Notes under the pieces: model-generated | What the model was told of the DNA's origin: nothing | Databases searched by the model: none | Seen by the model: only the letters and a program-made list of their open reading frames with translations | Shown: positions 1,894-19,165 of the stretch, piece after piece | Numbering within the stretch: the stretch's first letter is position 1 | How the letters are laid out: the number at the start of each line of letters is the position of its first letter | DNA from: a virus | Virus record (IMG/VR): IMGVR_UViG_3300044623_002022 | Location: 1-23,627 of that record | Strand: one strand, 5' to 3' | DNA: 23,627 nt | Made by a program: the position numbers and the translations under genes

Positions 1894-3927
1894 CTAGTAT
1901 AATTTAATTTCGCAAGCGTCTGTTGAGCAATACTTTTCAGACTCTGCGTCAAGATTATCCTTGCCATCATAGATAGCGGACCAATCAATTTTACCAATTT
2001 TTCCAACGTAAGAGTTATATTCTTCTCTTGTAATATTTGTATATGGTTGTTGAGGATAAGTTTTATTACCCATCGGCAGAAATGAAACTGCCTTTAATTG
2101 ACCTTCATACATGTGTAATGCTGGAGCAATATGCTTAGTCTCAGATTCCTTGTCAAATGATAAAGTTACAGATACTCCATTGTCAGACCAATACTTTTGA
2201 GCGGTAGCAGCCAAACCAATCTTTTCAAAAAGACTTACATCTTTTTCAGAACGAGGATGTCCAGATGCTACTGGGAAATATACTACTGAAGTGTTTGCAG
2301 ATACTACGTCATCTTCAATTTTATACCCTGCCGCTTTAAATAAATGCACCATTGGATCTGTATTGCCAAACCTTATAGCACGAAGATAGAATTCTCCTCC
2401 TGGACCCCAATGAACTCCTGGTGTTGCACCAGATAATAGGGAAACAGATCCTGAAGGTTTGACGGTAGTTACACGAATTGACTCACGTACACATAGCCAT
2501 TCTGAGTATGAGTGATCGTATGCACGAATCTTTTTATACCCTTCGTCCATCCACTCACGAATTACTGGCATACCTTTTGTGTCTGCAAATGATGCAATAC
2601 CAGTTAGAGATGTTCCAATACGACGATTACGTTGCATAATTCCATTTGTGGTTTGCCAATGTGTTGGCATAAGTGTAACGGTCTTACCATATAGATATGC
2701 AAACTTTAGTGTACGAAGAAAATCTTCTTTGTCTTCATGACGGTTTAAATGAACTTCTACAAGTGTGCATAACTCATAACTTTCTAATGGTTGTTCAGCG
2801 CAAGGATTGAATCCCATAACACGAGAATCTTTATAGTCTGCAGGATCTGCTAGTCTTCCATAATCTCTAGCAACGTCTAGCCAAATAAATCCTGGCTCAC
2901 CATTGTCTGCAATTAAATTAACATAGTCTTCATATTTTGTTCCAACCTCTGCAGCAATAGAATTATTAGACATCCATGCCCATCCTGGATTTTCTGAATC
3001 AAATGAGTTTCTGTCTGGAAAAACCTCTGCATTTTTTAAATTAATAAAATCTTTGTCTTCTGGTAATCCTAAAGCCAAGGTAGCAGAACGACGAACATTT
3101 CCAGAAACAACACATGTACCAATAAGGTTAACAATATCTACAATTGCACGAGAATCAAGTTTTTCTCCTGCTCTACCGCCGATTACTGCGTCTATCTTGT
3201 TATGTAGTGCAATGAGTGGTGCTGGACCGCTAGCAACCCCTCCAAAGCCTTTTATAGGGGCACCTAGAGGACGGATAAGGTCGTAGTTAAACTTTTGTAT
3301 AGCCTGATTAGGACGTAGGTATGAGTTTAATAACATTCTTACAGAGTCTACCCAACCTTCACGAGTATCTGGAATTTCCCATACATTTTCTGGCTCTGTA
3401 GGAGCATTAATAGTGATTTCTTTGTCTTGACCGACGGTATCAAAACCTACACCTATACCTAACATTAAAGCATCCATAACCCAAGCAAACAATGCTCCTG
3501 GATCATTACGATCAATATCACGAGTAGACACCATTGCACAGTTTTGTAGAGAAGCAGAGTTGCGCTTTTCCATAGTCATAGGAGTTCCAAATGCCCAAAG
3601 ACCTCTACCTGGCGGAGTCCATTTTAAATTAAACATACGGTCATATGCTTCTTGAGCAGATTTTTGACTCTTGTTATCGTTCCACGGTAGACGATTATCT
3701 TTAGCGTGGTTTTTTTGTACTGAGTACATTCCTTCAATTACCCGCTTACAAACCTCGTGCCATCTTTCTTTTGTTCCGTCTTCTTTCATACGAGAGTATG
3801 TGCGTATAAATGTAATTTCGCCTAATGAGTTAGAGCCTGCGTCTGAGAATCCAAAGGGTGCAGGAGTTAGTGAGTACTTTGTTACAAAGTCCTCTGATAG
3901 ACGAAATGAGAATACGCTTTCTGACAT
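1894..3927 (-). CDS. nrdJ: Adenosylcobalamin-dependent ribonucleoside-triphosphate reductase (class II, monomeric RTPR type)
   Basis: Reduces ribonucleoside triphosphates to deoxyribonucleotides using a cobalamin-generated thiyl radical; a cytoplasmic enzyme. The 677 residues carry the full set of class II monomeric motifs: Cys130 in LQNCAMVS, Cys376 and Glu378 in NPCAEQPLE, Cys387 exactly 11 residues later, the SGNVRRSA segment near 275-282, the loop KPSGSVSLLSGATPGVHW around 490-507, and a C-terminal redox pair Cys667/Cys672. These correspond to Cys119, Cys408, Glu410, Cys419, Cys731 and Cys736 of the Lactobacillus leichmannii enzyme (739 residues), with the 11- and 5-residue spacings kept. 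The segment between the first two cysteines is about 40 residues shorter, perhaps in the effector-binding region. The start follows AAAGG with a long spacer. No thioredoxin gene is seen, so host reductant and host B12 are presumably used. Confidence 0.95.
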   Translation of the reverse strand: MSESVFSFRLSEDFVTKYSLTPAPFGFSDAGSNSLGEITFIRTYSRMKEDGTKERWHEVCKRVIEGMYSVQKNHAKDNRLPWNDNKSQKSAQEAYDRMFNLKWTPPGRGLWAFGTPMTMEKRNSASLQNCAMVSTRDIDRNDPGALFAWVMDALMLGIGVGFDTVGQDKEITINAPTEPENVWEIPDTREGWVDSVRMLLNSYLRPNQAIQKFNYDLIRPLGAPIKGFGGVASGPAPLIALHNKIDAVIGGRAGEKLDSRAIVDIVNLIGTCVVSGNVRRSATLALGLPEDKDFINLKNAEVFPDRNSFDSENPGWAWMSNNSIAAEVGTKYEDYVNLIADNGEPGFIWLDVARDYGRLADPADYKDSRVMGFNPCAEQPLESYELCTLVEVHLNRHEDKEDFLRTLKFAYLYGKTVTLMPTHWQTTNGIMQRNRRIGTSLTGIASFADTKGMPVIREWMDEGYKKIRAYDHSYSEWLCVRESIRVTTVKPSGSVSLLSGATPGVHWGPGGEFYLRAIRFGNTDPMVHLFKAAGYKIEDDVVSANTSVVYFPVASGHPRSEKDVSLFEKIGLAATAQKYWSDNGVSVTLSFDKESETKHIAPALHMYEGQLKAVSFLPMGNKTYPQQPYTNITREEYNSYVGKIGKIDWSAIYDGKDNLDAESEKYCSTDACEIKLY

Positions 3928-4143: not shown

Positions 4144-4800
4144 ATGAATAATGTTTGGATAGTAGTTCCAGTCATTTCTAACGATATTGATTTAACATCA
4201 TATGTTAATAGACTATCTGGCGGTTATACCGCCCCAGAAACATATGAAAAAACTGTTTTTAACCCTGAAACACAAGCAAGTGAAAAAGAAGATGTGGCTC
4301 ATCCATATGCTGGTCAAGTGTCACATGATTTTTCAAATAAAATTATTTTTGTAAACAAAGTAGACGGGTACGGCGAGTATGAAGGCGTAGTTCATTTGGA
4401 AGATTTTAATGATATAGGCATATACCGTTATTGGAATACTGGACTAGAGTATGCTTTTGCAAATGGGGCAGACTCAGTAATCTTAACAAATGGTGTTTTT
4501 GAATTTGATCCATTTGTAATTAAAGAAGCATATGATGAATTTTCTAAGGGTGAATCAGAGGTTATAAATATCTCTGATGGGGCTATGTTGTTAGTTTCAT
4601 CATCTTCTAGCCTACGTGCTGATGAGCAATTTCAAATATGGTTTGGTGATAATGACTTTTATCGTAGAGCAGAGCCTGTATTAGGATATTCTCGTTCAGA
4701 ATATTTATGGGGAGACTACTTAATTGATTCTAGTTCTACCGAATCTTTTGATAGCATTGTTGCTTCTGATCAAGTAAAATATAATGCTAAGTGGAACTAA
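4144..4800 (+). CDS. Putative GT-A glycosyltransferase-like protein
   Basis: A 218-residue protein on the opposite strand to its neighbours. The ATG at 4144 is chosen because GGAGG ends 5 nt upstream; an in-frame GTG at 4138 overlaps that ribosome binding site and is rejected. The layout resembles small family-2-like glycosyltransferases: a nucleotide-binding beta strand at the N-terminus (VWIVVPVISND, residues 4-14), a central YWNTGLEYAFANGADSVILT segment (96-115), and a late FGDNDFYRRA motif (168-176). The usual metal-binding Asp pair after the central strand reads Asn116-Gly117-Val118, so catalysis may be altered or lost. It ends in a 14-bp tail-to-tail overlap with the minus-strand GT-B gene, and no terminator is seen. 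The family assignment rests on pattern only. Confidence 0.5.
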   Translation: MNNVWIVVPVISNDIDLTSYVNRLSGGYTAPETYEKTVFNPETQASEKEDVAHPYAGQVSHDFSNKIIFVNKVDGYGEYEGVVHLEDFNDIGIYRYWNTGLEYAFANGADSVILTNGVFEFDPFVIKEAYDEFSKGESEVINISDGAMLLVSSSSSLRADEQFQIWFGDNDFYRRAEPVLGYSRSEYLWGDYLIDSSSTESFDSIVASDQVKYNAKWN

Positions 4801-5761
4801 TTTTTTCAAACAATCTATTCCACTCTTTAGACCTTAAATCCCAAGAGTAATTTTCATTATAAAAATCTGATTGCTTTTGTAATTTACTTTGTGTTTCTAT
4901 AGACCAATAATTGTCAATCTCTTCATTTAGTGTTTTTGCATATGCTGGAATAAATGTTTCTGGTACCGCTTGCATTGGCATAAGCCTTGCATATTCTGAT
5001 CCAGTTTCATATAATGCACCAAGATTAGTTGTAACCATACGACATCCCGCAGCACCAGCCTCAACCATAGCCAAACAACATGTTTCTTCAAACGTACTTG
5101 GGTATGCAAATATATGAGATTCTTGTAAGGCTTTTTTAATTACATCATTTGTAGCGTATCCCATATAATTAACGTTTTTCATATTACGGGCTATTTCAAA
5201 ATGTTCTTCGTATACCCCGTTTGTATGAGCCTCATATCCAGTTCCATACATCTTTGCTGATGAATAAATATCAAGTTCAACATCATCTCTATTTAACATT
5301 TCAAATGCTGGCAAAAGCATGTCTAATCCACGAAATGGGGCAGAAGTATAAATTAACTTTATCTTGCCATCTTTTGTCTTAGGTTTAAACTCTATTGGGT
5401 CAATAGCATTTTTAATTACATATGCATTTTCAAGAGGGATTTTAAATATCCAGCGATACTTTTCATGTTGCCAGTGAGAAATATATACAAATGAATTTAT
5501 GGCATTCATAAATGAGGGATCTGTATATCCTGATCTTAACGATTCATCACTATGAGCCAAATGCTGCCATAGCAAATTCTTTTTTGTATATTTTACATTT
5601 TTAAAATATGGATTAGATAGCAAAAGGTGAATATCTTCATGCTGTGCTATATTAGTATATTTATATAGTCCAGATTTTAATATTTCTGTACCGCCCATTG
5701 GGGGCAAAGATTCTTCTACCACCGCAATATCGTTTTGTGGAACCTGCTGCAACCAATCCAT
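4787..5761 (-). CDS. GT-B glycosyltransferase (GT4-like)
   Basis: Expected to transfer a sugar from an activated nucleotide donor to a glycan or protein acceptor in the cytoplasm. The 324-residue protein shows an N-terminal PMGGTEIL acceptor-side loop (21-28), the linker strand region YISHWQHEKYR (93-103), the donor-domain opening KIKLIYTSAPFRGLD (133-147), and the E-x7-E signature Glu226/Glu234 in ETCCLAMVEA, typical of GT4 enzymes. The ATG at 5761 is preferred over one at 5794 because AGGAG lies 5 nt before it and the upstream stop codon (TAG, 5770-5772) overlaps this site, implying translational coupling. It is the last gene of the sulfotransferase-led cassette. Substrate unknown. Confidence 0.85.
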   Translation of the reverse strand: MDWLQQVPQNDIAVVEESLPPMGGTEILKSGLYKYTNIAQHEDIHLLLSNPYFKNVKYTKKNLLWQHLAHSDESLRSGYTDPSFMNAINSFVYISHWQHEKYRWIFKIPLENAYVIKNAIDPIEFKPKTKDGKIKLIYTSAPFRGLDMLLPAFEMLNRDDVELDIYSSAKMYGTGYEAHTNGVYEEHFEIARNMKNVNYMGYATNDVIKKALQESHIFAYPSTFEETCCLAMVEAGAAGCRMVTTNLGALYETGSEYARLMPMQAVPETFIPAYAKTLNEEIDNYWSIETQSKLQKQSDFYNENYSWDLRSKEWNRLFEKISST

Positions 5762-5769
5762 GCTATCTC

Positions 5770-6492
5770 CTAATTGTAAGTTTTTTTCTGCCAAAACTGT
5801 TGTTTATATGAACGAACTATTTTTGATTTTAATAAAAAACCATTTTTACGATTTTCTTCTTCATCAAATTCTACAACATCGCTTTTCCAGTCTTCTCTCT
5901 TAAATGGAATAACCTGACAGATAGGAGTTCCCTTTTCAAGAATAAAAACATTTTTGTCAATTATGGAATCCAATAGTTGAAATGGAAACTCAACACCAAG
6001 TTTATACATATCAGTATCCACAACACCAGAAAATGTTCTAAATGGAAGATCGTGCCTGTTTGTTGGGTGCGTAAACAGACAACTATAGCCTTTTGGAGTA
6101 ATAACTCTCCATCCTGGTCTCCACTTAAGAAGACTTGGAGAGCCACCAAATGGTCCTGGTAATCCTGGTGCTTGATCTGGTCCGTGTTGTCCTATAAGAT
6201 TAATATTTGTTGCCCAACGAACATTAATCATTCCTTTATCATTTTTTCTAAACTCCATATCAAATGGTAATTCAAACATGTAGCCTGTACTTAAAGCGTC
6301 AAGAAAAGGAGAGCATCCCTTTAATGTTAAGTTACTAACTGCAACCCCATCTTTTGATAAACCGTCTAATTTTTCTTCATCCATTCTTGTTGGCATATCT
6401 TTATACCATTGTGGAAGAGACTGAACTGCTGGCTTTGGACTTTCAAACAAAAGTTCTGTTTCTTTATCAAATGCTTCAAATTGTAATTTCAT
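5770..6492 (-). CDS. DUF6065-like protein, copy 1
   Basis: A 240-residue protein of unknown biochemical function. It is clearly paralogous to the protein at 21173-21919. Shared landmarks are a Trp before residue 30 (LPQWYKDMP), a Cys-Pro-Phe-Leu-Asp-Ala motif (60-66, with Ser after Cys here), FRKNDKG, WRVITPKGYSCLFTHP (128-143), NRHDLPF (145-151), SGVVDTD (155-161) and KGTPICQVIPF (187-197). The overall order resembles proteins I recall as DUF6065 (see the entry at the right edge); this is memory-based and unverified. The start overlaps the upstream stop by one base (TAATG), so it is translated with the GT-A gene. No signal peptide or membrane segment. Constant company with glycosyltransferases suggests a role in glycan handling, which is inference. 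Confidence 0.8.
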   Translation of the reverse strand: MKLQFEAFDKETELLFESPKPAVQSLPQWYKDMPTRMDEEKLDGLSKDGVAVSNLTLKGCSPFLDALSTGYMFELPFDMEFRKNDKGMINVRWATNINLIGQHGPDQAPGLPGPFGGSPSLLKWRPGWRVITPKGYSCLFTHPTNRHDLPFRTFSGVVDTDMYKLGVEFPFQLLDSIIDKNVFILEKGTPICQVIPFKREDWKSDVVEFDEEENRKNGFLLKSKIVRSYKQQFWQKKTYN

Positions 6493-7196
6493 TATTTATT
6501 TTCCTGTGGATAATTTTTTTGTAAAACATCCATCCAATGAAGTTTAAATGTTTTTTGATGAGTTACTCTAACTTTGGGATCCGCCCAAATTTCAAAACCA
6601 GAATTAATGGCTTTTGTACACCAAGAAAGATCTTCACCAATAAGTATAAACTCAGGATTTGTGTCTTTGTTTTCATCTGTATTGGGTATTGCTACTGGGC
6701 CAAACCAAGGTCTTGGCATTTTTTCAAATACCCCTTGTTTAACGGCTAGGAACCCAAATCCAGCCCCAGCAACTTTGAATGGCTCATTCTTATCAAGGAG
6801 CATTTGTTCTGGCATCATTCCGCCTCTAGGCTGATTATAAATAGGAACGTGGCGATCTTCCATTAAATAGCATCCAGAAATAATATCTTTTTCAGAATTA
6901 TATAATGCAAAAAAGTCTGATGGCTCCCACTCAATATCTGAATCAATCCAAATAATTTTGTCGTAAGTCCATTCACCACTACATGGCTCTGTCATATTTA
7001 TATTATTTGTATCCCAGCCACCAATTGTACACTCACGGGCCATTGCAACTAAAGATCCACCTTGATTTAAAAAGTTCCAAGATAAGCCTTCTTCATTTAG
7101 TATGTATGTTGTTTTAAGAATACTTCTCATATATCCAGGAGTAAATCCATTTCCTGGAGTAGCGATTACTACATTAAAATGTGGCTTATTTGCCAT
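6492..7196 (-). CDS. GT-A fold glycosyltransferase, paralogue A
   Basis: A 234-residue family-2-like glycosyltransferase. It opens with the donor-binding strand FNVVIATPGNG (7-17), has the metal-binding Asp85-Ser-Asp87 in IIWIDSDIEW, a GAGFGFLAVKQGVFEKM segment (144-160), the catalytic-base-like Glu188-Asp189 in LIGEDLSWC, and a late His213 that may complete metal binding. It is a tandem paralogue of the next upstream gene, sharing IDSDI, GFGF, KQGVFE, RPWF and GEDxSWC. It overlaps that gene by 11 nt and couples by TAATG to the gene downstream. The ribosome binding site is weak (AAGG, about 10 nt away), consistent with coupling. Donor and acceptor are not deducible. Confidence 0.85.
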   Translation of the reverse strand: MANKPHFNVVIATPGNGFTPGYMRSILKTTYILNEEGLSWNFLNQGGSLVAMARECTIGGWDTNNINMTEPCSGEWTYDKIIWIDSDIEWEPSDFFALYNSEKDIISGCYLMEDRHVPIYNQPRGGMMPEQMLLDKNEPFKVAGAGFGFLAVKQGVFEKMPRPWFGPVAIPNTDENKDTNPEFILIGEDLSWCTKAINSGFEIWADPKVRVTHQKTFKLHWMDVLQKNYPQENK

Positions 7197-7857
7197 AGTT
7201 ATCTAACCTTACCTTTACTTTTTTATAATGCGACAAACTTACTGTAGGATCTAAGTATATCTTAAATCCTGCTTTCTGTGCTTTTTTGCACCAAGAAAAA
7301 TCTTCTCCGTAAGGAATAAAAATTTCTTTTTCCCCATCTTCTGAAGTCATTTTTTCAAATACTGACTCAAACCATGGTCTTTTTATATTTTCAAATACGC
7401 CTTGTTTCATTGCTATAAAACCAAATCCTGCAGCAAAAATTTCTTCTTCCTTATTGCTTTTTAAAATTTTATCAATTTCTGTTGCTGCATCTTCTACTGC
7501 TACAGAAAACATTGGTACCATTTTTTCATTAAAATATAAACCAGAAACAATATCTTTATCAGATTCATATATTTTCATAAAGTCTGTTATTTCCCATCCA
7601 ATATCAGAATCAATCCAAAAAATTTTATCATATGTTACTTGTCCACGAACTGGGCTATTATTAAAAGGATCGAGATATTGATCCCCCATTGCTGTTGCTT
7701 CTCTAGCGGTACTAACCATAGATGAATATTCATTTAAGAACATATATGAAATACCTACTTGATTTAGATATGAAATAGTTTGTATTAGACTTTTTACATA
7801 TTCTGCTTCCATATTTCTACCAGGAGTAGCGATAAGAATATTTACATGTGGATTCAT
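7186..7857 (-). CDS. GT-A fold glycosyltransferase, paralogue B
   Basis: A 223-residue paralogue of the next gene, with the same order of motifs: HVNILIATPGR (4-14), Asp83-Ser-Asp85 in FWIDSDIGWE, FAAGFGFIAMKQGVFENI (141-158), PYGEDFSWC (182-190) and His210. The ATG at 7857 is chosen: GGAG lies 7 nt before it and the stop of the sulfotransferase gene overlaps the start (TAATG). An in-frame TTG four codons upstream coincides with the ribosome binding site and is rejected. Two adjacent, diverged copies point to tandem duplication and possibly sequential addition of two sugars. Specificity unknown. Confidence 0.85.
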   Translation of the reverse strand: MNPHVNILIATPGRNMEAEYVKSLIQTISYLNQVGISYMFLNEYSSMVSTAREATAMGDQYLDPFNNSPVRGQVTYDKIFWIDSDIGWEITDFMKIYESDKDIVSGLYFNEKMVPMFSVAVEDAATEIDKILKSNKEEEIFAAGFGFIAMKQGVFENIKRPWFESVFEKMTSEDGEKEIFIPYGEDFSWCKKAQKAGFKIYLDPTVSLSHYKKVKVRLDNYGK

Positions 7858-8672
7858 TAGTTTCTCCAAAATTCTTGACCAGAATATTTATTTATTACAT
7901 ATTCAGATAATAGTTCTTGTTTATTTATATTTCGACGGGATATAGAAGATCTTACATCATGTTGTCCTATAAGTCCATAGACATTATCATCTTCTTTAAT
8001 GTTGTTTGCTATATTTGAATAATCATGGGTAAATCTTTCAATGCCGTAAAAATCGTAAATCTTATTAATTTCCTCTTCTGGATTTACTATTAAATCATCG
8101 TATTCTACAAAATGGAAATACTTTCTATTATCTGGATGCATTGCAAATGCTATACCGTATAAGCAGTTATCAATAATACCTTTTGGCCTCATTAAACTAT
8201 CACACCTAATATCATCTGCTGGACGGTAAAAATTAAATTCCTGTCTTGTCTGTATTTCAGAATCAATAAAATTATTTTTATTTGGATTTTTCTTAACTAG
8301 ACTTATAAATGATGCAAGGATATCTGTTATTCCTCTTACTGGTAGTATTATTTTTGGTTCATATCCAAGATTTCTTTGCAATACCCCGAAATGTTCAGGC
8401 ATTGACCATTCTCTTGATTTATCAATAATGATAGGTTTATTTGTATCAGAGTAGTATCCTTCTAATACCCCCATAATTGTATTTGGCATTACTACAGGTT
8501 TGGGATATGCAGAGTACTGTTCTGATGCCAAAATACTACGTTCTAAATTAAATATCATTCCACACATAGGTGAATTTGCTGATGAATAAATATCAGGATT
8601 TTGATTTAATATAGATGATATTAGAGTACTACCAGATCTTGGAAGACCTGCCATAAAATAAAAATTTTTCAT
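7857..8672 (-). CDS. PAPS-dependent sulfotransferase
   Basis: Expected to move a sulfuryl group from 3'-phosphoadenosine 5'-phosphosulfate to a glycan or other acceptor. The 271-residue protein starts with the 5'-phosphosulfate-binding loop GLPRSGSTL (9-17). It carries the 3'-phosphate-binding signature with Arg113 and Ser121 in PVRGITDILASF, spaced by eight as in the family, followed by a C-terminal segment with VEYDDLIVNPEEEI that matches the usual region ahead of the last helix. It heads the lower glycan cassette, with its own TGCTATAAT box and a GGGGG ribosome binding site 4 nt before the ATG, and couples by TAATG to the GT-A gene. No PAPS synthesis gene is in view, so donor supply would come from the host or elsewhere in the genome. 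Confidence 0.88.
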   Translation of the reverse strand: MKNFYFMAGLPRSGSTLISSILNQNPDIYSSANSPMCGMIFNLERSILASEQYSAYPKPVVMPNTIMGVLEGYYSDTNKPIIIDKSREWSMPEHFGVLQRNLGYEPKIILPVRGITDILASFISLVKKNPNKNNFIDSEIQTRQEFNFYRPADDIRCDSLMRPKGIIDNCLYGIAFAMHPDNRKYFHFVEYDDLIVNPEEEINKIYDFYGIERFTHDYSNIANNIKEDDNVYGLIGQHDVRSSISRRNINKQELLSEYVINKYSGQEFWRN

Positions 8673-8719: not shown

Positions 8720-11700
8720 TTATGCAAGTTCAATATCAGTTAAATTATAATTAGATATTGGTAATGTCAATGCTTGAGTAGTCCATGTAGCACCATCAGT
8801 TGATACATATATGCCTAGGTTTTCATTTACTGTTGAGGTATTTATGTCTCCTGATCCTGAAATTGCTGTCCATAGGTTGTTGCCATAGTTTACTGAGAAT
8901 ATATCATTTACAAAGTTTAAGGTTTTGGTAGTCCAGGTTACTCCATCGGTTGAAGTTCTTAGGGCTCCAAAATTGCCACCTGCTACCCAAATACTGTTTC
9001 CGTAGGCTATTGATCGTATAGTTACACTTTCAAAGTTAGAGGTTTGGGTAGTCCAGGTAGTGCCGTCTGTTGAGGTACGGAGTGTGCCTGAAATTCCACC
9101 TGCTATCCATAGGTTATTTCCGTAGGCTACTGATATTATACGTGTAGTTCCAAAGTTAGAGGTGCGTGTAGTCCAAGTTATGGCATCGGTTGAGGTGCGC
9201 AATTGGCCTGTATCCCCACCTGCTATCCAAAGGCTGTTGCCGTAGGCTGCTGACCATATAGTGGTATTTCCAAAGTTAGAGGTTTGGGTAGTCCAGGTAG
9301 TGCCGTCTGTTGAGGTACGGAGTTGTCCTATATAGCCAGTTGCTACCCAAAGGCTGTTGCCGTAGGCTACTCTTTGTATTTGTGTATTTCCAAAGTTAGA
9401 GGTGCGTGTGGTCCAGGTTGTTCCATCCGTTGAGGTACGTAACTGGCCTGTATTTGCACCTGCTACCCAAAGACTGTTACCGTAGGCTACTGAGTTTATC
9501 TGTGTATTACCAAAGTTGGAGGTGCGTGTGGTCCAGGTTGTTCCGTCTGTTGAGGTACGGACTTGTCCTGAACCACCACCTGCTACCCACAGATTATTGC
9601 CATAGGCTACTGATGTTATAAAAGTATTGCCAAAGTTGGAGGTTTGTGTTACCCATCTATTTGGTGTTTTTCCATCTACATATATTGAATAAGTGTTATT
9701 ATAAGAATTTACTTTTTCTACCCAACCCAAAACTCCTGTTCTAGTTGAGGCATATGTAGAATTTGATGTATTAAATGTATAAAATATTCCTTGATCTGAT
9801 GCTAATATATCTGTGTTTATTGATGTAATAATTGGTGATATTGATGGGGTGTAGGAAATTCGTAGTTGTCCTGCCTCACCACCTATTGCCCATAGGTTAT
9901 TTCCGTAGGCTACTGAGTTTATAACGGTACTTCCAAAGTTAGAGGTTTGGGTAGTCCAGGTTATGGCATCTATTGAGGTACGTAACTGGCCTGCATCTCC
10001 AACTATTACCCAAAGGTTGTTAGCGTAGGCTACTGAGTTTATAGTTGTAGCACCAAAGTTAGAGGTGCGGGTGGTCCAGGTTATTGCATCAGTTGAGGTG
10101 CGGAGATTGCCTGCCTCACCACCTGCTACCCAGAGGTTGTTGCCGTAGATTATTCTGTTTATAAGTGAAGCACCAAAGTTTGAGGTTTGGGTGGTCCACG
10201 TTATAGCGTCTGTTGAGGTGCGGAGTTGTCCTGAATATCCACCTGCTATCCAAAGGCTATTACCATAGATTGCTGTGCGTATACCTGAAGTTCCAAAGTT
10301 TGAGGTTTGGGTAGTCCATGTTATTGTATCTGTTGAGGTGCGGAGTTGGCCTGTCTGTCCAACTGCTACCCAGAGGTTATTTCCGTAGGCTATTTCGTTT
10401 ATAAGTGAAGCACCAAAGTTTGAGGTTCTGGTAGTCCATGTTATTGCATCTGTTGAGGTGCGGAGTTGGCCATTAGCCCCTCCTATTACCCAAAGGTTGT
10501 TGTTATGGGCTAATGCAAATATACTGTCAGCAGCAGAAAAGTTAGAGGTTTGGGTAGTCCATGTTATTGCATCTGTTGAGGTGCGTAGTGTGCTAAAGAT
10601 TCCACTTGCTACCCACAGGTTATTGCCGTAGGCTATGTCTCTTATAGCAAGGTTTCCAGAAATATTTGAAGTTTGAGTAGTCCATTGCAAATTTTGAATG
10701 GTATATGAAATTAAATTATTACTAGTAACAAAATTATTATCTGCTATTAATCCAAATTCTCTATTTCCAAATGCAGATATTGACTTTATATTGTTGAATA
10801 ATGGTGTTACGGTTGAGGTACGGAGTTGACCTGTAATACCACCTGCTACCCAGAGGCTATTACCGTAGGCTATTCGGCGTATAGTTGTATTTCCAAAGTT
10901 AGAGGTTTGGGTATTCCAGGTTGTGCCATCTGTTGAGGTGCGGAGTATGCCTGTGTAGCCACCTGCTATCCAAAGGCTGTTGCCGTAGGCTACTGATTGT
11001 ATACGTGTACTTCCAAGGTTAAGGGTTCTACTAGTCCATGTTATGGTATCTGTTGAGGTGCGGAGTTGTCCATAATGTCCACCTGCTACCCAAAGGTTGT
11101 TGCTATAGGCTATTGAATATATATTTGCCGTAAAATTAGAGGTTCGGGTAGTCCAGGTTATGGCATCTGTTGAGGTACGTATTTGGCTTCCAGCACCGAC
11201 TGCTGTCCATAGATTATTGCCGTGGGCTATTGCAAATATATTTGAGATTCCAAAGTTGGAGGTTTGGGTAGTCCAGGTTGTGCCGTCTGTTGAGGTACGT
11301 AACTGGCCTGTGTAGCCACCTGCTGCCCAGAGACTGTTGCCGTAGGCTATTGAATCTATGCGTGTAGTTCCAAAGTTAGAGGTTCGGGTAGTCCAGGTTA
11401 TGGCATCTGTTGATGTGCGGATTTGTCCTGTAATACCAACTGCTACCCAAAGGCTGTTGCCATAGGCTACTGACTGTATATTTGTAACTCCAAAGTTGGA
11501 GGTGCGGGTGGTCCAGGTTATGGCATCTGTTGAAGATCGGAGTTGCCCACTTTGTCCACCTGCTACCCAGAGGCTGTTGCCGTAGGCTAAATCTTGTATA
11601 TGTGAATTTCCAAAGTTAGAGGTGCGGGTGGTCCAAAAAATTCCTGCCTGATACAAACTTTTATATTGATTATATTGATCTGTATTTCTATCAGAATATA

Positions 11701-13885
11701 AAAGTGATCCATTTATATTTGATATTGCTTTATAGCGTTCTGTTGTTGCTATGCCGCTTGATTTTACGTTGGTATCTACAGAAGCAATAGCATTTAAAAT
11801 ACTAATAGTAGTCCATGATATTCTATCAGTAGACACTCTTGTATTTGTTCCTGTTGAAGATGCTACTGTTGATATATTTGGATTATATAATAAGATTGAG
11901 GTACGGAGTTGGCCTGACTCTCCACCTGCTACCCAAAGGCCGTTTCCATAGGCTACTGATGTTATACTTGAAGTTCCAAAGTTGGAGGTTTGCGTAGTCC
12001 AAGTTATTGCATCTGTTGAGGTGCGGAGTTGGCCTGTATTTCCACCTGCTACCCAAAGACTGTTACCGTAGTCTACTAAGTTTATCTGTGTATTACCAAA
12101 GTTAGAGGTGCGTGTGGTCCAGGTCGTACCATCCGTTGAGGTACGTAACTGGCCTGTATCCCCACCTATTGTCCATAGGTTGTTGCCATAGGATATTGCT
12201 CTTATGGCTGTACTTCCAAAGTTTGAGGTACGGGTAGTCCAGGTTATGGCATCTGTTGAGGTACGAAGTGTTCCTGTATAGCCGCCTGCTATCCAAAGAT
12301 TGTTTCCGTAGTTTAACCTTAGTATATCCGTATTACCAAAGTTTGAAGTTTGGGTAGTCCAGGTGGTGCCGTCTGTTGATGTTCGTAGTTGTCCTCTATT
12401 TCCACCTGCTACCCAGAGGCTGTTTCCATAGGCTATTGAGTGTATAAAAGAGGTTCCAAAGTTAGAGGTACGAGTGGTCCAGGTTGTGCCATCTGTTGAG
12501 GTGCGTAGTGTTCCTGCATTACCACCTGCTATCCAAAGGTTATTGCCGTAGGCTATTGAGTATATACGTGTACTTCCAAAGTTGGAGGTGCGGGTATCCC
12601 AGGTTGTGCCATCTGTTGAAATTCGTATTTGTCCAGTATCTCCACCTGCTATCCATAGGCTGTTGCCGTAGGCTACTGAGCGTATTGTTGTATTTCCAAA
12701 GTTGGAGGTTTGTGTATTCCAACTAGATATTGCATTATTATTTTCAGCAATTTGTACATTATTTATATTACTCGATCCAAATCCAGCATCTATTGTTGTC
12801 CATGATATGGAGTCGGTAGAAAATAAGAGTCTATTATTGTTCCCGCCGACAATATAATTATTTAAAGTAGGATTATATGAAATATCGTTTAAAGAATCAT
12901 CTGCTGAAGTGCGGATTTGTCCTTGATTTCCACCTGCTACCCAGAGGCTGTTGCTATAGGCTACTGAGTATATATCTGAAGTTCCAAAGTTAGAGGTTTG
13001 GGTGGTCCAGGTTATGGTATCTGTTGAGGTGCGCAATTGGCCATATTGCCCACCTGCTACCCAAAGACTGTTGCCGTAGGCTACTGAGAATATACTTGTA
13101 TTACCAAGGTTTGAGGTTCTGGTAGTCCAGGTTGTGCCATCTGTTGAGGTACGGAGTGTGCCTGAATTTCCACCTGCTATCCAAAGGTTATTGCCGTAGG
13201 CTACTGAGCCTATAGATGTACCACCAAAGTTGGAGGTTTGGGTAGTCCAGGTTATGGCATCTGTTGAGGTGCGTAAGGTGCCTGTATTTCCACCTGCTAT
13301 CCAAAGACTGTTGCCGTAGGCTATTGAGCGTATTGCTGAAGTTCCAAAGTTTGAGGTTTGAGTGGTCCAAGTTGTGCCATCTGTTGAGGTGCGCAATTGG
13401 CCATATTGCCCACCTGCTACCCAAAGGCTGTTGCCGTAGGCTACTGAAAATATATTTGTATTACCAAAGTTTGAGGTTTGAGTGGTCCAAGTTGTGCCAT
13501 CTGTTGAGGTGCGCAATTGGCCTGTATAGCCGCCTGCTATCCATAGGCTGTTGCCGTAGGCTACTAATCGTATATCCGTATTTCCAAAGTTGGAGGTACG
13601 AGTGGTCCAGGTTATGGCATCGGTTGAGGTGCGAAGTGTGCCAGATTGCCCACCTGCTACCCAAAGGTTATTTCCATAGGCTACTGCTCTTATCTGTGTG
13701 TTTCCAAAGTTTGAGGTTTGTGTGGTCCAGAATGTGCCATTATTTGACGGTATATTAATATCAAAAGTTGTTAAATCTCCAGTAGATGATCTTAATGTTC
13801 CATCAGTTCCAGTAATAAAAAGTTTTTTTAAAAAGTTGAATGTTGATACAAATACAGCGCTAGCAGTAATTCCTAAGATTGGCAT
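8720..13885 (-). CDS. Giant propeller-repeat adhesin / tail protein (35 x 40-residue units)
   Basis: A 1721-residue protein, probably a virion adhesin or tail fibre. After a short N-terminus (MPILGITASAVFVSTFNFLK) it consists of 35 units of about 40 residues with a framework WTT(Q/R)TSNFG, an Ile near position 14, YGN(N/S)LW(V/I)AGG, G-x-L-R-T-S-T-D. Units occur in five runs of exactly seven (about residues 52-331, 388-666, 750-1028, 1067-1348, 1410-1689), separated by linkers of 57, 84, 39 and 62 residues. The STDGTTW segment resembles the Asp-box of BNR/sialidase-like propellers, so each run could be a seven-bladed beta-propeller. The ATG at 13885 is preferred: it overlaps the upstream stop as TAATG, whereas an in-frame TTG at 13915 would overlap the fibre gene by 31 nt. 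Ligand unknown. Confidence 0.85.
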   Translation of the reverse strand: MPILGITASAVFVSTFNFLKKLFITGTDGTLRSSTGDLTTFDINIPSNNGTFWTTQTSNFGNTQIRAVAYGNNLWVAGGQSGTLRTSTDAITWTTRTSNFGNTDIRLVAYGNSLWIAGGYTGQLRTSTDGTTWTTQTSNFGNTNIFSVAYGNSLWVAGGQYGQLRTSTDGTTWTTQTSNFGTSAIRSIAYGNSLWIAGGNTGTLRTSTDAITWTTQTSNFGGTSIGSVAYGNNLWIAGGNSGTLRTSTDGTTWTTRTSNLGNTSIFSVAYGNSLWVAGGQYGQLRTSTDTITWTTQTSNFGTSDIYSVAYSNSLWVAGGNQGQIRTSADDSLNDISYNPTLNNYIVGGNNNRLLFSTDSISWTTIDAGFGSSNINNVQIAENNNAISSWNTQTSNFGNTTIRSVAYGNSLWIAGGDTGQIRISTDGTTWDTRTSNFGSTRIYSIAYGNNLWIAGGNAGTLRTSTDGTTWTTRTSNFGTSFIHSIAYGNSLWVAGGNRGQLRTSTDGTTWTTQTSNFGNTDILRLNYGNNLWIAGGYTGTLRTSTDAITWTTRTSNFGSTAIRAISYGNNLWTIGGDTGQLRTSTDGTTWTTRTSNFGNTQINLVDYGNSLWVAGGNTGQLRTSTDAITWTTQTSNFGTSSITSVAYGNGLWVAGGESGQLRTSILLYNPNISTVASSTGTNTRVSTDRISWTTISILNAIASVDTNVKSSGIATTERYKAISNINGSLLYSDRNTDQYNQYKSLYQAGIFWTTRTSNFGNSHIQDLAYGNSLWVAGGQSGQLRSSTDAITWTTRTSNFGVTNIQSVAYGNSLWVAVGITGQIRTSTDAITWTTRTSNFGTTRIDSIAYGNSLWAAGGYTGQLRTSTDGTTWTTQTSNFGISNIFAIAHGNNLWTAVGAGSQIRTSTDAITWTTRTSNFTANIYSIAYSNNLWVAGGHYGQLRTSTDTITWTSRTLNLGSTRIQSVAYGNSLWIAGGYTGILRTSTDGTTWNTQTSNFGNTTIRRIAYGNSLWVAGGITGQLRTSTVTPLFNNIKSISAFGNREFGLIADNNFVTSNNLISYTIQNLQWTTQTSNISGNLAIRDIAYGNNLWVASGIFSTLRTSTDAITWTTQTSNFSAADSIFALAHNNNLWVIGGANGQLRTSTDAITWTTRTSNFGASLINEIAYGNNLWVAVGQTGQLRTSTDTITWTTQTSNFGTSGIRTAIYGNSLWIAGGYSGQLRTSTDAITWTTQTSNFGASLINRIIYGNNLWVAGGEAGNLRTSTDAITWTTRTSNFGATTINSVAYANNLWVIVGDAGQLRTSIDAITWTTQTSNFGSTVINSVAYGNNLWAIGGEAGQLRISYTPSISPIITSINTDILASDQGIFYTFNTSNSTYASTRTGVLGWVEKVNSYNNTYSIYVDGKTPNRWVTQTSNFGNTFITSVAYGNNLWVAGGGSGQVRTSTDGTTWTTRTSNFGNTQINSVAYGNSLWVAGANTGQLRTSTDGTTWTTRTSNFGNTQIQRVAYGNSLWVATGYIGQLRTSTDGTTWTTQTSNFGNTTIWSAAYGNSLWIAGGDTGQLRTSTDAITWTTRTSNFGTTRIISVAYGNNLWIAGGISGTLRTSTDGTTWTTQTSNFESVTIRSIAYGNSIWVAGGNFGALRTSTDGVTWTTKTLNFVNDIFSVNYGNNLWTAISGSGDINTSTVNENLGIYVSTDGATWTTQALTLPISNYNLTDIELA
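8819..9658 (-). repeat. Propeller block 5: seven 120-bp units
   Basis: Seven in-frame units, the first opening WVTQTSNFG and the seventh diverged (WTTKTLNFVND). After the seventh, a half-unit (YVSTDGATWTTQ) and a short tail end the protein, as would fit strand exchange closing a propeller. Confidence 0.9.
9842..10687 (-). repeat. Propeller block 4: seven units of about 120 bp
   Basis: Seven units; the first two are 41 residues rather than 40 (SNISGNLAIRD and SNFSAADSIFA). A 62-residue non-repeat linker (9659-9841) separates it from block 5. Confidence 0.9.
10802..11638 (-). repeat. Propeller block 3: seven units of about 120 bp
   Basis: Seven units; the fifth is one residue short (SNFTANIYS). 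A 39-residue linker (10688-10801) follows towards block 4 and looks like half of a worn unit. Confidence 0.9.
11888..12724 (-). repeat. Propeller block 2: seven units of about 120 bp
   Basis: Seven units, starting WNTQTSNFG and ending GQLRTSILL. An 84-residue linker (11639-11887) follows, containing a worn unit fragment (VSTDRISWTTI). Confidence 0.9.
12893..13732 (-). repeat. Propeller block 1: seven 120-bp units
   Basis: Seven units of exactly 40 codons, ending RTSADDS. A 57-residue linker (12725-12892) follows, containing YIVGG and LLFSTDSISWTTI, a diverged copy of the unit framework. Confidence 0.92.
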
Positions 13886-16593
13886 TATGCGCTTAAATCC
13901 CCTACAGCCACCCAAGTATTTGCTGCTCTTTTAACAATTGTGGCGACAGACCATTGTCCTCTTAGTTTTAAACCAGGACTTCCATTTACTGTTGTAGTTG
14001 CTGGAGTTACCGCTGCAATTGTTATTTGTCCTGCTCCAGTTTGTAAAATATTTATTTGTGATCCTATTGCAAAATTTGCAGTAGCATCTGTTGGTATATT
14101 TAGTGTACCCGCAGTTGCTCCATTACTTAACTCAAGCCATTTATCTTTATCTGCTAGAACTACTGTGTATGCATTTGTTGTAAATGTAGGTGTTGAAATA
14201 GTTAAAGTAGAAGAAGCAAACTCAACTGCTTGTGACACCGAATTAAGAGTGCCCCCAACAAGAATTTTGTCATTAGTAGAATCCCAAGCAATTCTGCCAT
14301 CTGTTGTAGAAGATGTAGTAGATAGAGTAAGGAGTGGTGTATCGATTGTTGGACTTGTTAAAGTTTTATTTGTAAGGGTTTCAGATACATCTTTAAGAGC
14401 AGTTCCATTCATAGAGTATGACTTACCAGAAGCAAGATTTATGTGTTCCGATGAAGTCCAAGAATCTGTAGAGTCAACCCAGTTAAAGGTTTTATCGGTT
14501 GTGCCTTTAAGTGTAATACCTCCGCCATCGGCAGTTATGTCTGTTGGAGTTTCTACATCTCCAAGAATAATATTTTTATCTTCAACAACTAGGTTAGTTG
14601 AGTTAATATTTGTAGTTGTACCGTTTACGGTAAAGTTTCCAGATACCGTCAAAGAAGGAACTGTAAATTCTCCAGATGAAGATACATTAGCAAGGATTGT
14701 TCCGCTTGAGTTTTGCCATTCTTGAAGGTTAGCGGTTTGTGATGCTAATCCTTTAACAATAAACCCAACCATACTTGTGTTATATGGTCGCCAAGGTACA
14801 GGGCCATAAGAATCAAATTGTGTGGCAGAAATAGATAGTGAGTAAGGATTGCCATCAACACCTAATGTAATTACGCTACCTGCTGGTCCTCGAAGTGTTG
14901 GAACAATTAATTTGCCGCTAGCATCCATACTTGCCATTACAGTACCGCTACTATTCTGCCACTCTTGCAGATTGGCAGTTTGTGATGCTGCGCCCTTGAT
15001 AATTAAAGGAATATTAGTTGAAGATAATGCATTGGCTGTTATATTGCTAGAACTAAATGAAAAATATGGCCCGTTTGCTGCAGCGTTTTGGACAAAAGAA
15101 ACGTTAATAGTATTATTAACATATAATCTGCCGTCAGCACCAACGCTAGTAAGTACAGAACCACTACTATTCTGCCACTCTTGAAGGCTAGCAGATTGTG
15201 AGGCTGCGCCTTTGACCGCAAACGGAACTACGGAGGCGCTAAGTGTAATTGCAGTAACTGGGCTTCCAGAAGTCATTGAAAGATAAGAACCACCACCGCC
15301 AGCAGGTTGATAAAATGGTGCATAGTTAGCAGCAGTATTAAGTACTCCGCTAGAAGACATATAGGCAACTGCGCTACCAGCACTATCCTGCCATTGTTGA
15401 AGGTTGGCGGTTTGGGAGGTTGCACCACGAACAACTATTGGAGTAATTGCTGCCGTACCTGCAACAAAACTTCCAACGGCAGACAAAGTAAATGTTCCAC
15501 CCGTACCTGCTACATCTGTAAATCCTGAACCAAGAACTGTAAAAGTTGTTGATGTAACTGCTGTTACTGTCCAAGTTCCATTGTAAGTGCCACCACTTAC
15601 TGATGCCACTGTAACTCGCTGACCTGCTTGCACAAGTGATGTGCCACCATAGGTAAAGACTGCAACTGTCGCAGATGTATATGCAGCCGATGTGATTGCC
15701 GTAGTAGTTGAACCATTGATGCTTGTGGTAGTCCCTGCGTATATTTGTCCAGCAGAATTAATTCCTGAAAGAACAGTTCCAGCACTACCCCTCCATTGTT
15801 GTAGGTCTGAAGTTTGAGTTGAAATACCTATTACTTGTAAAGATGGATAACTTCCTGCTGTTGATGTGACAGCAAAATAGGCAGAATTATTTCCTGATTG
15901 AAATACTAGTTGGCTTCCTCCGCCACCTACATATCCCATTGAACCTGAAATACGTAAATTACCACCTGCCTGGATTGATGCCAACGTTGTACCAGCATTA
16001 TTCTGCCATTGTTGAAGGTCGTTTGATTGTGACGTTACGCCTTTCACAACTATTCCAGTAGTAGTATTATTTATAGGAATTACTGATAATTGTGTTCCTG
16101 TTATTAAGGTTCCAAGATTTAGTGCGCCAGTATTTCTTAGGCTTGCCCTTACCGTTCCATCAAAGTTGTGCCATTCTTGCAGGTTAGCGGTTTGAGATTC
16201 GGTGCCCTTTACAATTAAACCAACAGTTTCAGCATTAGCAGTAGTAATCTGTTGCACTCCACCAGTAAATGTATTGGCGGTAGCAAGATAAGGAACACCA
16301 GTAATTGCTGAATTTGCTGGAATTGTGACGGTACCAGTAAAAGTAGGAGAAGCAAGTGGGGCTTTAGCATCTATCTGAGTTTGAATTGCTGAAGTTACAC
16401 CATCTACATAATTTAATTCTGTAGAAGTTGCGGTAAGATCAACGTTCTCGTTAATTTTTGGGGTAGTTAAAGTTTTATTTGTAAGAGTTTGTGTATCCGA
16501 TGTGGTAATAACTTGATTACCATTGACCGTAGCAGAGTTTCCTTCTACTATCAAACCATTCTTGACCCTAAAATCTTTATTTGTTGTAGTCAC
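13885..16593 (-). CDS. Phage tail fibre protein with seven LQEWQ-type repeats
   Basis: A 902-residue tail fibre protein. The N-terminus (KDFRVKNGLIVEG, 6-18) matches that of the next fibre gene and may be a shared attachment tag. TLTNKTLT motifs lie at 36-43 and 739-746. Seven fibre units centred on LQEWQ or LQQWQ at residues 138, 193, 264, 398, 470, 542 and 623 follow. An extra module at about 300-372 (AGQRVTVASVSGGTYNGTWT) interrupts the series. From about 650 comes a segment known from cyanophage fibres (VVEDKNIILGD, TADGGGITLKG, FNWVDSTDSW). The C-terminal 90 residues (VVLADKDKWLELSNG to NTWVAVGDLSA) are a common fibre end module. The start is GTG, with AGGGA about 7 nt upstream. Location in the tail is inferred from the family. 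Confidence 0.88.
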   Translation of the reverse strand: MTTTNKDFRVKNGLIVEGNSATVNGNQVITTSDTQTLTNKTLTTPKINENVDLTATSTELNYVDGVTSAIQTQIDAKAPLASPTFTGTVTIPANSAITGVPYLATANTFTGGVQQITTANAETVGLIVKGTESQTANLQEWHNFDGTVRASLRNTGALNLGTLITGTQLSVIPINNTTTGIVVKGVTSQSNDLQQWQNNAGTTLASIQAGGNLRISGSMGYVGGGGSQLVFQSGNNSAYFAVTSTAGSYPSLQVIGISTQTSDLQQWRGSAGTVLSGINSAGQIYAGTTTSINGSTTTAITSAAYTSATVAVFTYGGTSLVQAGQRVTVASVSGGTYNGTWTVTAVTSTTFTVLGSGFTDVAGTGGTFTLSAVGSFVAGTAAITPIVVRGATSQTANLQQWQDSAGSAVAYMSSSGVLNTAANYAPFYQPAGGGGSYLSMTSGSPVTAITLSASVVPFAVKGAASQSASLQEWQNSSGSVLTSVGADGRLYVNNTINVSFVQNAAANGPYFSFSSSNITANALSSTNIPLIIKGAASQTANLQEWQNSSGTVMASMDASGKLIVPTLRGPAGSVITLGVDGNPYSLSISATQFDSYGPVPWRPYNTSMVGFIVKGLASQTANLQEWQNSSGTILANVSSSGEFTVPSLTVSGNFTVNGTTTNINSTNLVVEDKNIILGDVETPTDITADGGGITLKGTTDKTFNWVDSTDSWTSSEHINLASGKSYSMNGTALKDVSETLTNKTLTSPTIDTPLLTLSTTSSTTDGRIAWDSTNDKILVGGTLNSVSQAVEFASSTLTISTPTFTTNAYTVVLADKDKWLELSNGATAGTLNIPTDATANFAIGSQINILQTGAGQITIAAVTPATTTVNGSPGLKLRGQWSVATIVKRAANTWVAVGDLSA
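14662..16218 (-). repeat. Seven degenerate LQEWQ fibre repeats
   Basis: Units share (V/I)KG, SQTxxLQ(E/Q)WQ, (S/A)GTVLAS and a closing Gly. Spacing between the LQ-W cores is 55, 71, 134, 72, 72 and 81 residues; the long gap holds the inserted module. Such units usually trimerise into a fibre shaft. Confidence 0.8.
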
Positions 16594-16621: not shown

Positions 16622-18703
16622 TTAGGCTTCTATAAGCGTCTTATGCACCTTTACTGTTGTCTCGTTTGATGCCGTTACAAGTAGTCTAACATTTCCGCCT
16701 GAGTAATCTGCATTAGTTGTTCCTAAAGATGCTGCTGCATTGATTACATCTGCATATTCTGTAAGAGCAACGTTGTTGCCTCCGTCTACGTTAACAAGGA
16801 TTTCTATGGTTTGAACTTCTGTACCCTTTTTCATTTGTACTAAATATTTAGCACTTGAGTATGTGGTTGCTGACCAAGAGTCAACTACGGTTGCAGTTCC
16901 ATCTGTAAGTGCTTGTGTAGCAGTTCCAATTAATGCATCTGTCAGTGTAAGCGATGTTGCAGTTGCTGCACCAATGTTTGGAGTTGTAAGTGTTGGAGAG
17001 GTGCCAAATACTAGAGCGCCAGACCCTGTTTCGTCAGAGATTACTGATGCTAGTTCTGTTGAAGTGGTTGCTGCAAAAACGTCCAATTTGTTGTTTGTAA
17101 GAGCAACAGTACCTGTAGCATCTGGAAGAGTAATTGTTCTGTCTGCAGTTGGATCAGTTACTGTAATAGTTGTTTCATGGTCGTTTGCTGTAGCACCTTC
17201 AAGAACGATACTTCCGTCTGAAAGGGTAAGTCCTGAAATTGTTGGTGATGTTAGAGTTTTGTTTGTTAAAGTGTCCGTTGAAGAGGTAGTGACAACATTA
17301 ACACCTTCAACAGCAATAACACCTGCTGAAACTCTTGAAATTGTTGTGTCTGTAGCATGGCCTAACTCAACAGTTCCTACACCTAAAGCGGTGGAAGTTG
17401 AAGCAACTAATCCACTAATCGGTAAGCCAGTTGCATTTGTTAAAGTTCCTGATGCTGGAGTTCCAAGTGCTGGAGTAGTTAATGTTGGCGATGTGAGAGT
17501 TTTATTTGTAAGGGTTTGTGTACCTGTTAATGTTACTACTGTTGAATCAATATCAAGAGTGTTTCCAGTCTTGTCTAATCCTGTACCCGCAACAATTTGT
17601 CCTAAGCCAGTAAATTGGGTAAATGTAAGGGCTGTAGTTCCAACTGTGATTGCACCATCGTTAGTTAATACATAACCTTGATCAGCGTTAACAGTTCCTT
17701 GTTCTACAAATACCGCAAAATTTGAAGTAAGTTCAGTATTTGTATCACAATCAGGTGAACGAGTTGCAGGACCAACTATTGCAACTCTATAGATACCGTT
17801 TTCTGAAGCATCTGACTGATTCTTAACAAGAACACGGTCAAACATGCTAAGAGTTACTCCGTCAATAATATCGTCAGGGCTAAGATCACTTGCAATGTTA
17901 ATGTTTGTAGTTGTTGCTGCACGTACTGATGGTTTCCAGTCAATACCTTGTGCTGCTGAATCTACATAAGCCTTTGTTGCTGCATCTGAGTCAGTCTCTG
18001 GTGTACCAAGACCTGTAATCTTGTAAGTTGCCATACTGACGTTGCCAGTTGGTGCTCCAACAGCGCTTAGTGCAAACTCTGAAGGGTCTACAGAAATTGC
18101 GCCTGTTGAATCATCATAGTCAAGACCATTTCCTACAACAGTTCCAATTGCATCTTGTGCTCTTTCGTCTGTGAAGTATTTGTTTGTTGAACCTTCTGCA
18201 ATATCGTCAGATCCAAGAGTACGTGAACCACCAAGAGATGTTGATGTACCGTTAATAGTAATTGCTGAGTTTGATAGTTTATCGTTTGCAATTGATCCTG
18301 CAAGCATTGTGTTTGTTACAGAACCTGTATCTCCAGTTGTTACAACAGTTCCAGTTACGTCTGGAAGAGTAATTGTACGGTCTGCTGTTGGATCTACTAC
18401 TTGAAGGGTAGTTTCAAAGTCATTTGCAGTTGCACCTTCAAATGAAACGCTTGCTTGAAATACTCCAACTGGTTGTGTTTCTTTCCAGGCAATTCCATTT
18501 GTTGCTTGATCGTCTGCTGTAAGCACATAGTTATTTGTTCCAACTGCTAGACGAGTTACTGCATCTGCACCAGATGCAACTAGTAAATCACCTTTTGCGT
18601 CTACTAATGCTTCTGTTAATATATCGTGGTTGTTTACAGTTGCAGTTGATCCTTCAACTACTAGTCCCGCTTTTACTCTAAAATCTTTTGTTACGGTTGC
18701 CAT
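16622..18703 (-). CDS. Phage tail fibre / structural protein
   Basis: A 693-residue fibre protein. It begins with [13 protein letters not shown] (6-18), nearly the same tag as the downstream fibre gene, then a [15 protein letters not shown] segment, two copies of an EGATAND[16 protein letters not shown] module (near 90 and 505), [13 protein letters not shown], and a long domain typical of phage fibres ([56 protein letters not shown]). [11 protein letters not shown] repeats follow. The last 75 residues ([24 protein letters not shown] onward) resemble the end of the next upstream small protein. The ribosome binding site AAGGAG lies 6-7 nt before the ATG and overlaps the end of the upstream gene, so translation is likely coupled and strong. 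Confidence 0.87.
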
Positions 18704-18718
18704 CTTATATCTCCTTGG

Positions 18719-19165
18719 TTAGGCCTTTAATCCCATACGCATGTAGCGTAGGGTTATAGGTGTAATTCCCCCTACTGGAACAACAGTTAGTGAAACTGTG
18801 TCTCCAGCCCTTGAAACAGAGATGGTGCCAATATTCCCATCGTTGTCAATTGTTGCATACTGAGTAAAGTTAACATCTGTACCGTCAATCAGAATGCTAA
18901 GTTCTGTAGAAAAGTACTTGTTAGCCCCACCTACCACATATTTGAGTGAGATCATATATTTCATTGATCTAAACTCGCTTGCTAAAAAGTTATCAAAAAC
19001 CGTTGGGTTTTCAATTCCATTAATTGTTGACTCGTTATTACCATCTGATCCAAGATCGGTAGACCTAGCAGAAGTACTATCAATTAAGTCTATATAGTTT
19101 TGTTCCGTTGGTCTATCACCTGTTTGAAACAGGGCTTTTACATTGGTGGTTGATATCTTTGCCAT
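18719..19165 (-). CDS. Small virion structural protein with shared beta-rich C-terminus
   Basis: A 148-residue protein. The first 50 residues (MAKISTTNVKALFQTGDRPTE, with NYIDLIDST) resemble the opening of phage fibre and neck proteins that start with a short anchor and a GDxPTxxNY pattern. The C-terminal 80 residues (KYMISLKYVVGG, LSILIDGTDVNFTQYA) resemble the end of the fibre protein encoded just downstream. The start codon lies 6 nt after a TGCTATAAT box, and no ribosome binding site is visible, so a leaderless message is likely. Its position in a run of tail genes supports a virion role; the exact location is unknown. Confidence 0.75.
   Translation of the reverse strand: MAKISTTNVKALFQTGDRPTEQNYIDLIDSTSARSTDLGSDGNNESTINGIENPTVFDNFLASEFRSMKYMISLKYVVGGANKYFSTELSILIDGTDVNFTQYATIDNDGNIGTISVSRAGDTVSLTVVPVGGITPITLRYMRMGLKA

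Follow-up and report, generated by a model that had tools for sequence, protein, structure and literature searches.

The window analysed here is a stretch of 23,627 nucleotides of viral DNA (IMG/VR record IMGVR_UViG_3300044623_002022) that encodes a giant repeat protein on its minus strand, next to structural and fibre-like genes:

8720..13885, minus strand: giant repeat protein of 1721 residues; its ATG at 13885 and the stop codon of the preceding gene overlap (TAATG)
12902..13729, minus strand: run 1, seven units and a predicted seven-bladed propeller (repeat pattern and AlphaFold2 model); missing as a block in the relative L014
11894..12721, minus strand: run 2, seven units (repeat pattern); a different allele in L014 and L015
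10811..11635, minus strand: run 3, seven units (repeat pattern); block-exchanged between the window and L004
9851..10684, minus strand: run 4, seven units (repeat pattern)
8828..9655, minus strand: run 5, seven units (repeat pattern)
13885..16593, minus strand: upstream structural, fibre-like gene of 902 residues, matching a PHROG for a virion structural protein; in L086 its C-terminal domain is joined to units
16622..18703, minus strand: fibre-like gene of 693 residues; its C-terminal domain corresponds, without rings, to the scaffold in which rings are set in L013, L017, L025 and L026

The listed open reading frame of the repeat protein (8720-13915, minus strand) begins at a TTG 30 bases upstream of the overlapping ATG, which is most likely the true start. 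Downstream, at 4787-8672, lie glycosyltransferase and sulfotransferase genes, with three genes between them that have no Pfam match over the cut-off; surface or virion sugars are perhaps changed by these enzymes. A lysozyme-like gene (SLT_3) is found on the plus strand at 20572-21123, among minus-strand genes. No near DNA match to the window was found among 50,697 phage records.

The pattern W-x-[TS]-[QRK]-T-[SL]-N matches 35 times in the 1721-residue protein. Within runs the units are mostly spaced by 40 residues (one spacing is 39 and two are 41), and the spacing is broken after units 7, 14, 21 and 28, yielding five runs of seven units; the gaps between runs are 56, 82, 38 and 61 residues if a full 40 are allotted to the last unit. 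The scan confirms the original prediction of 35 units in five runs of exactly seven, and the linkers, first put at 39-84 residues, come to 38-82 by this count. Tandem Repeats Finder reported 120-base periods across the same stretch. At a lax profile cut run 1 counts as eight units, since a portion of linker 1 is then picked up as a weak blade, at 4.0 bits. Compared pair by pair, the 35 units are on average 61% identical as protein and 68% as DNA, which excludes a chance origin of the repeats. The copy number recurs in L004, L005, L007 and L008; these contigs, which are assemblies rather than long reads, each bear a different IMG/VR metagenome number, and their coding sequences are identical to one another, 96.0% identical to that of the window and of the same length. 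The coding sequence in L003 is 100% identical to that of the window and may be the same record.

Against Pfam the protein reached 65.3 bits for DUF6242 (cut-off 29) and 62.2 bits for Kelch_6 (cut-off 25.3), both summed over the repeats, and 33.8 bits for PBSX_XtrA (cut-off 29.7), a match that looks spurious. The motif STDGTTW had been likened to the Asp-box of BNR propellers, which reads S-x-D-x-G-x-x-W. This likeness did not hold up: the units mostly read S-T-D-[GA]-x-T-W, one residue short, and BNR was not among the five Pfam families found at E ≤ 1.

With 48 sequences, mostly seven-unit runs from relatives, residues 1-392 were modelled by AlphaFold2 at a mean pLDDT of 77.0, with 263 of the 392 residues at 70 or above and with values of 76-96, by blocks of ten, over residues 61-330. 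Run 1 in this model repeats the strand order D-A-B-C seven times. In VIA-align, residues 52-330 align with the seven-bladed design 7BIG at a Z of 32.8 (2.3 Å, 272 residues aligned), and run 1 aligns with 2YMU at a Z of 32.3. The model and the structural alignments make a solenoid unlikely and support run 1 as a predicted closed ring of seven four-stranded blades. The structure prediction that had been proposed as a check thus returned a seven-bladed ring for one run of the five. A model of residues 1-1108 made with seven sequences had a mean pLDDT of 39.1, too low to use. The suggestion that all five runs are seven-bladed propellers is supported for run 1 by the confident model and by the run lengths of relatives; runs 2-5 would close in the same way on the strength of the shared repeat.

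Relatives were gathered by profile scans of viral contigs, one of them with the N-terminal scaffold, and from phage records; after removal of contained open reading frames, 57 of 255 were kept as non-redundant, and one-unit runs were dropped. Removing runs more than 90% identical to another kept 81 of 87, and removing runs at contig ends kept 74. In these 74 bounded, non-redundant runs of at least two units, which still include a few contig-end runs (for example in L011, L044 and L018), the automatic count was seven in 48 cases, fourteen in three and another number in 23, of which some, not all accounted for, are weak-blade misses or contig ends. With a laxer cut, multiples of seven are reached by both runs of the L017 protein, which has two rings, by a run of 28 in L072 and by one of 21 in L010; still off are two runs of 6 in L010, runs of 8, 8 and 9 in L038 and one of 19 in L018, and the first runs of the window, L004, L012 and L015 become eights. 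Five-unit runs that contain no degenerate blades, as assembled, are present in L011 (residues 553-752, at the position of run 5) and in L086 (residues 38-236); these could be true five-bladed rings, oligomers or collapsed assembly. The expectation that relatives keep multiples of seven is supported by the sevens and fourteens, with the 23 other counts and the fives of L011 and L086 standing against it. Selection on blade number, as first proposed, is plausible; the exchange of whole rings likewise holds the number at seven. In L012 (10012-13236) and L035 (4696-8781), a 14-unit run contains near its start a unit with a shortened first strand and, later, a degenerate unit; this run may be a ring inside a ring.

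When the runs are removed, the sequence that remains is recognisably common to relatives. The runs act as complete ring cassettes within this conserved scaffold, and relatives gain, lose and swap rings whole. In L014, the N-terminal piece is joined directly to linker 1, at the place where the window, L004 and L015 have run 1; by eye, run 1 is also absent from L010 and L049. L035 lacks a ring that is present at the matching site of L012, the DNA flanks being 96% (138 bases) and 94% (180 bases) identical, and has a ring just ahead of the C-terminal strand where L012 has none, the preceding 144 bases being 90% identical. In DNA, the window and L004 are 97-100% identical segment by segment, with the exception of run 3; this run is 83% identical and, as 16% of the gene, holds 141 of the 208 base differences; the differences in run 3 extend from gene base 2280 to 3066 and the run itself spans 2251-3075 (some of these positions are zero-based). 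In L015, run 1 is 98.9% identical and run 2 is a different one, with a best match of 78% to run 2 of the window. Four scaffold segments were found in L027 at 86-97% identity, and the best matches of the window's rings to this contig are at 76-81%; at the position of run 3 it has fourteen units end to end. Recombination through the conserved scaffold flanking a ring would be the simplest account of such exchange. A simple chain with unique linkers, as originally pictured, has become doubtful, as the flanks form a conserved scaffold that holds whole rings and parts of it can be read as blades:

13730..13885, minus strand: N-terminal scaffold piece, interpreted as strands B, C and D of hub blade 1 (AlphaFold2 strands at 21-26 and 31-33, low confidence)
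12722..12901, minus strand: linker 1, interpreted as hub blade 2 followed by the A strand of blade 3 (P 94.8 and E 5.2e-8 with hhalign)
11636..11893, minus strand: linker 2, read as the rest of hub blade 3 and blade 4 (blade 4 missed in the window and found in the L012 counterpart)
10685..10810, minus strand: linker 3, interpreted as hub blade 5 (the hhalign match is weak, P 11.7, and 1 of 30 shuffles did as well)
9656..9850, minus strand: linker 4, read as hub blade 6 and the start of blade 7 (blade 6 undetected in the window)
8720..8827, minus strand: C-terminal scaffold piece, read as the end of hub blade 7 and the closing strand A of blade 1 (a reading of the sequence)

Taken together, the N-terminal piece, the linkers and the C-terminal piece may make up a seven-bladed hub closed by the C-terminal strand, a reading for and against which we hold the chances to be about even. 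Eight scaffold pieces, taken as blades 2, 4, 5 and 6 of the window and blades 4-7 of L012, were compared with the unit profile by hhalign, with 30 shuffles each; two control domains were negative. The match of linker 1, as hub blade 2, was equalled by none of its 30 shuffles. The L012 counterparts of blades 4, 6, 5 and 7 gave probabilities of 80, 56, 9 and 8, respectively, low for blades 5 and 7, again with none of 30 shuffles as high, and the window's own blades 4 and 6 were undetected in this comparison, 17 and 18 of their 30 shuffles scoring as high. The AlphaFold2 model places strands, at low confidence, where those of the linker-1 blade are expected, and the C-terminal ending looks similar, by eye, in L010, L012, L035 and L044. 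The N-terminus of the hub had no match at E ≤ 1 in the 50,697 phage records. In L012 (9970-10060) and L035 (4650-4745), the scaffold is split over two adjacent genes, the first stop and the second ATG being one base apart, and AGGCGGT precedes the ATG of the second gene; the hub of these two relatives may be completed by two proteins.

Rings are also held by other proteins. In L013, L017, L025 and L026, runs split a different domain. A profile of this domain, made from its two flanks joined in six proteins, matched, on both sides of the insertion point, the C-terminal domain of the gene at 16622-18703 (P 93.8, E 1.7e-7, equalled by 0 of 40 shuffles); the gene at 18719-19165 matched it over 30 residues only, with the insertion point outside the match. 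A third type of host comprises short one-ring proteins in L046, L080, L081, L037 and L072. In L046, L080 and L081, three adjacent genes encode one ring each with different N-terminal flanks, as if one phage had several such proteins at its disposal. In the short proteins, the sequence on either side of the ring hinted at a Collar domain as host of the ring; this candidate was rejected, Collar (PF07484) being found in 0 of 15 records at E ≤ 1 and being unlisted for four such proteins. Actinomycetia phage DSL-LC01 encodes a stand-alone protein of 290 residues with seven units and short ends.

Among the columns of the unit, entropy is highest at 10, 12, 14, 28 and 29, both in the window (32 of the 35 units used) and across 382 units (35 columns compared). 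In the model of run 1, columns 10 and 12 lie between strands D and A, column 14 is the second residue of A, and columns 28 and 29 lie between B and C. The D-A and B-C loops of propellers are on one face, and by this geometry the five variable columns would all lie on one face of the predicted ring. Between the window and L004 the five columns carry 24 nonsynonymous and 6 synonymous changes, as against 60 and 69 in the other columns (Fisher p 0.001), a comparison that is partly circular because the columns were chosen for variability in the same protein. Run 3 accounts for 25 of the 30 changes in these columns (19 nonsynonymous and 6 synonymous), and 5 and 0 fall elsewhere. As for a diversity-generating retroelement, 0 of 14 records, which may be fragments, matched the reverse transcriptase family PF00078, which control genomes did match.

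As for its place in the virion, the repeat protein follows a structural gene and a fibre-like gene, one of them with matches to tail fibre PHROGs, and neighbouring genes match PHROGs for head decoration, virion structural protein and tail fibre. In L086, units are fused to a domain that shares 62% identity with the end of the adjacent upstream gene (13885..16593) and is matched by a PHROG called minor tail protein. The protein is thus encoded with tail-fibre parts, in adjacent genes, and joined to such a part in the L086 fusion. Gene order and this one fusion suggest that it is likely a tail adhesin, and its position, its variable face and the receptor-binding propellers already known point to a putative role in receptor binding. 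A search of 15 records for a T4-type capsid protein (Gp23) gave no match, with the control equally silent. The ribonucleotide reductase has Mycobacterium phage Gaia (60.6%) and Actinomycetia phage DSL-LC01 (59.9%) among its best matches, which would indicate an actinobacterial host.

We consider it probable that the protein forms the far end of a phage tail fibre, where the cell would be bound, and that it has five complete seven-bladed rings, each set in its own loop of the conserved scaffold. In a closed ring the first and last strands would be neighbours, so that a whole ring could enter, leave or be swapped in a loop with the scaffold undisturbed; a partial exchange would leave a broken ring. 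Five variable positions per blade on one face would give about 35 variable positions per ring for a ligand, which for the predicted face is probably a host surface sugar or protein. One may go further and picture a propeller of propellers, with a degenerate seven-bladed hub whose loops hold the rings, the rings serving as a general plug-in cassette that is grafted into unrelated tail-fibre domains and exchanged whole for receptor specificity, and with the hub of L012 and L035 made from two proteins. We put this fuller picture forward tentatively, as one with a little less than an even chance of being right.

The main alternative is that of the original prediction, five propellers strung like beads and joined by ordinary linkers, with neither hub nor insertion. 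The free-standing ring of DSL-LC01 with its short ends, the end-to-end fourteen of L027 and the undetectable blades 4 and 6 of the window all fit a chain of this kind. Linker 1, on the other hand, is clearly a blade, the scaffold continues across empty sites in L014 and between L012 and L035, and in L013, L017, L025 and L026 the rings split another domain; with this evidence on both sides, we regard the simple chain as a real possibility, though a rather doubtful one. A second alternative, that the sevens are an assembly artefact of short repeats, might be raised on the ground that every sequence is an assembly and that the repeat unit is 120 bases long. We judge it very improbable: the units average only 68% identity in DNA, so that reads should separate them in most places, four other contigs give the same length, and seven recurs across diverged relatives.

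It is also conceivable that every run arose by recent amplification of one blade, with selection trimming it to seven. Highly repetitive propellers are known to grow mainly from single blades, with a bias to the usual number of their family, according to the available text of Pereira and Lupas (PMC9218822), and local duplication does occur in this family, since 87 of all 382 units have their nearest relative in the same run, as against 4.5 expected at random. For the window, however, a recently amplified propeller of the WRAP type was rejected: its units are 68.4% identical in DNA within runs and 67.6% between runs, and of the 33 units tested only 3 had their nearest relative in their own run, 9 being closest to a unit of a different run in the protein and 21 to one on another contig. 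This nearest-relative test omitted L004, L014, L015, L021, L022, L023, L054 and L127, units below 30 bits and units failing a filter for length and tryptophan. Recent amplification is accordingly an improbable origin for these runs. Lastly, the protein might be a decoration or capsid-surface adhesin, or a sugar-cutting enzyme, rather than a tail receptor-binding protein. Propellers can be enzymes, and the neighbours match head decoration and virion structural PHROGs besides tail fibre, but the joining of units to a minor tail protein domain in L086 and the presence of distant units (27.9% identity) in the baseplate wedge protein of cyanophage S-CAM9 (L022:4001-4771) argue for the tail, and we hold this alternative to be unlikely, if less so than recent amplification.

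Several known systems come close to this protein. Seven-bladed propellers and chains of them have been described before; the unusual feature is that the ring serves as a movable cassette in at least two fibre scaffolds and that a single protein has five of them. The solved structures nearest to the run profile were the designs Ika8 and Tako8, followed by Ycf48 (8AM5, E 4.2e-5), which is also among the Foldseek matches of the run 1 model. Ycf48 has one ring of diverged blades and a role in photosystem assembly, and the seven-unit protein of DSL-LC01 is annotated as a photosystem II assembly factor. Despite the likeness to Ycf48 (2XBG, 5OJ3, 8AM5) in profile and by Foldseek, the window protein shows no sign of photosystem function. 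The structures 6G6O, 6G6M and 7BIG are the artificial proteins Ika8, Tako8 and v13WRAP-T, of which v13WRAP-T gives the highest structural Z; Ika8 and Tako8 are eight-bladed, as stated in the available part of PMC6327176. The WD40 propellers of the WRAP type (Npun_R6612, 2YMU) likewise consist of near-repeat blades of about 40 residues, and 2YMU has 14 near-identical blades that form two seven-bladed rings, as far as the accessible text of PMC6805158 describes it. By such partial accounts, WRAP blades are nearly identical and derive from one amplification, whereas the blades of the window differ and its rings sit in a scaffold and are swapped whole between relatives. Among phages, phi11 Gp45 and PRD1 P2 have five-bladed propellers and PhiKZ gp131C a seven-bladed one; in these cases the propeller belongs to a proven or putative adsorption protein, and in phi11 an N-terminal strand closes the ring, of which there is one per chain, compared with the five proposed for the window protein; ring cassettes in loops find no mention there (PMC4901313, from the portion of the paper at hand). 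A literature search for one propeller inserted into another gave no match, from which we do not claim that none is in print.

Our findings indicate that the closed ring is apparently the unit of gain, loss and exchange in these proteins. The movement of rings as wholes would amount to a counting system, and none accompanies the growth of repetitive propellers from single blades as described in the available text of PMC9218822. Given the putative binding function, the arrangement resembles a set of plug-in parts by which the virus could alter what it adheres to. If this is true, a phage could change several binding surfaces without refolding its fibre, and the places where recombination breakpoints fall could be predicted. 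The protein would then also offer a natural example for protein design, in which closed domains are inserted into loops.
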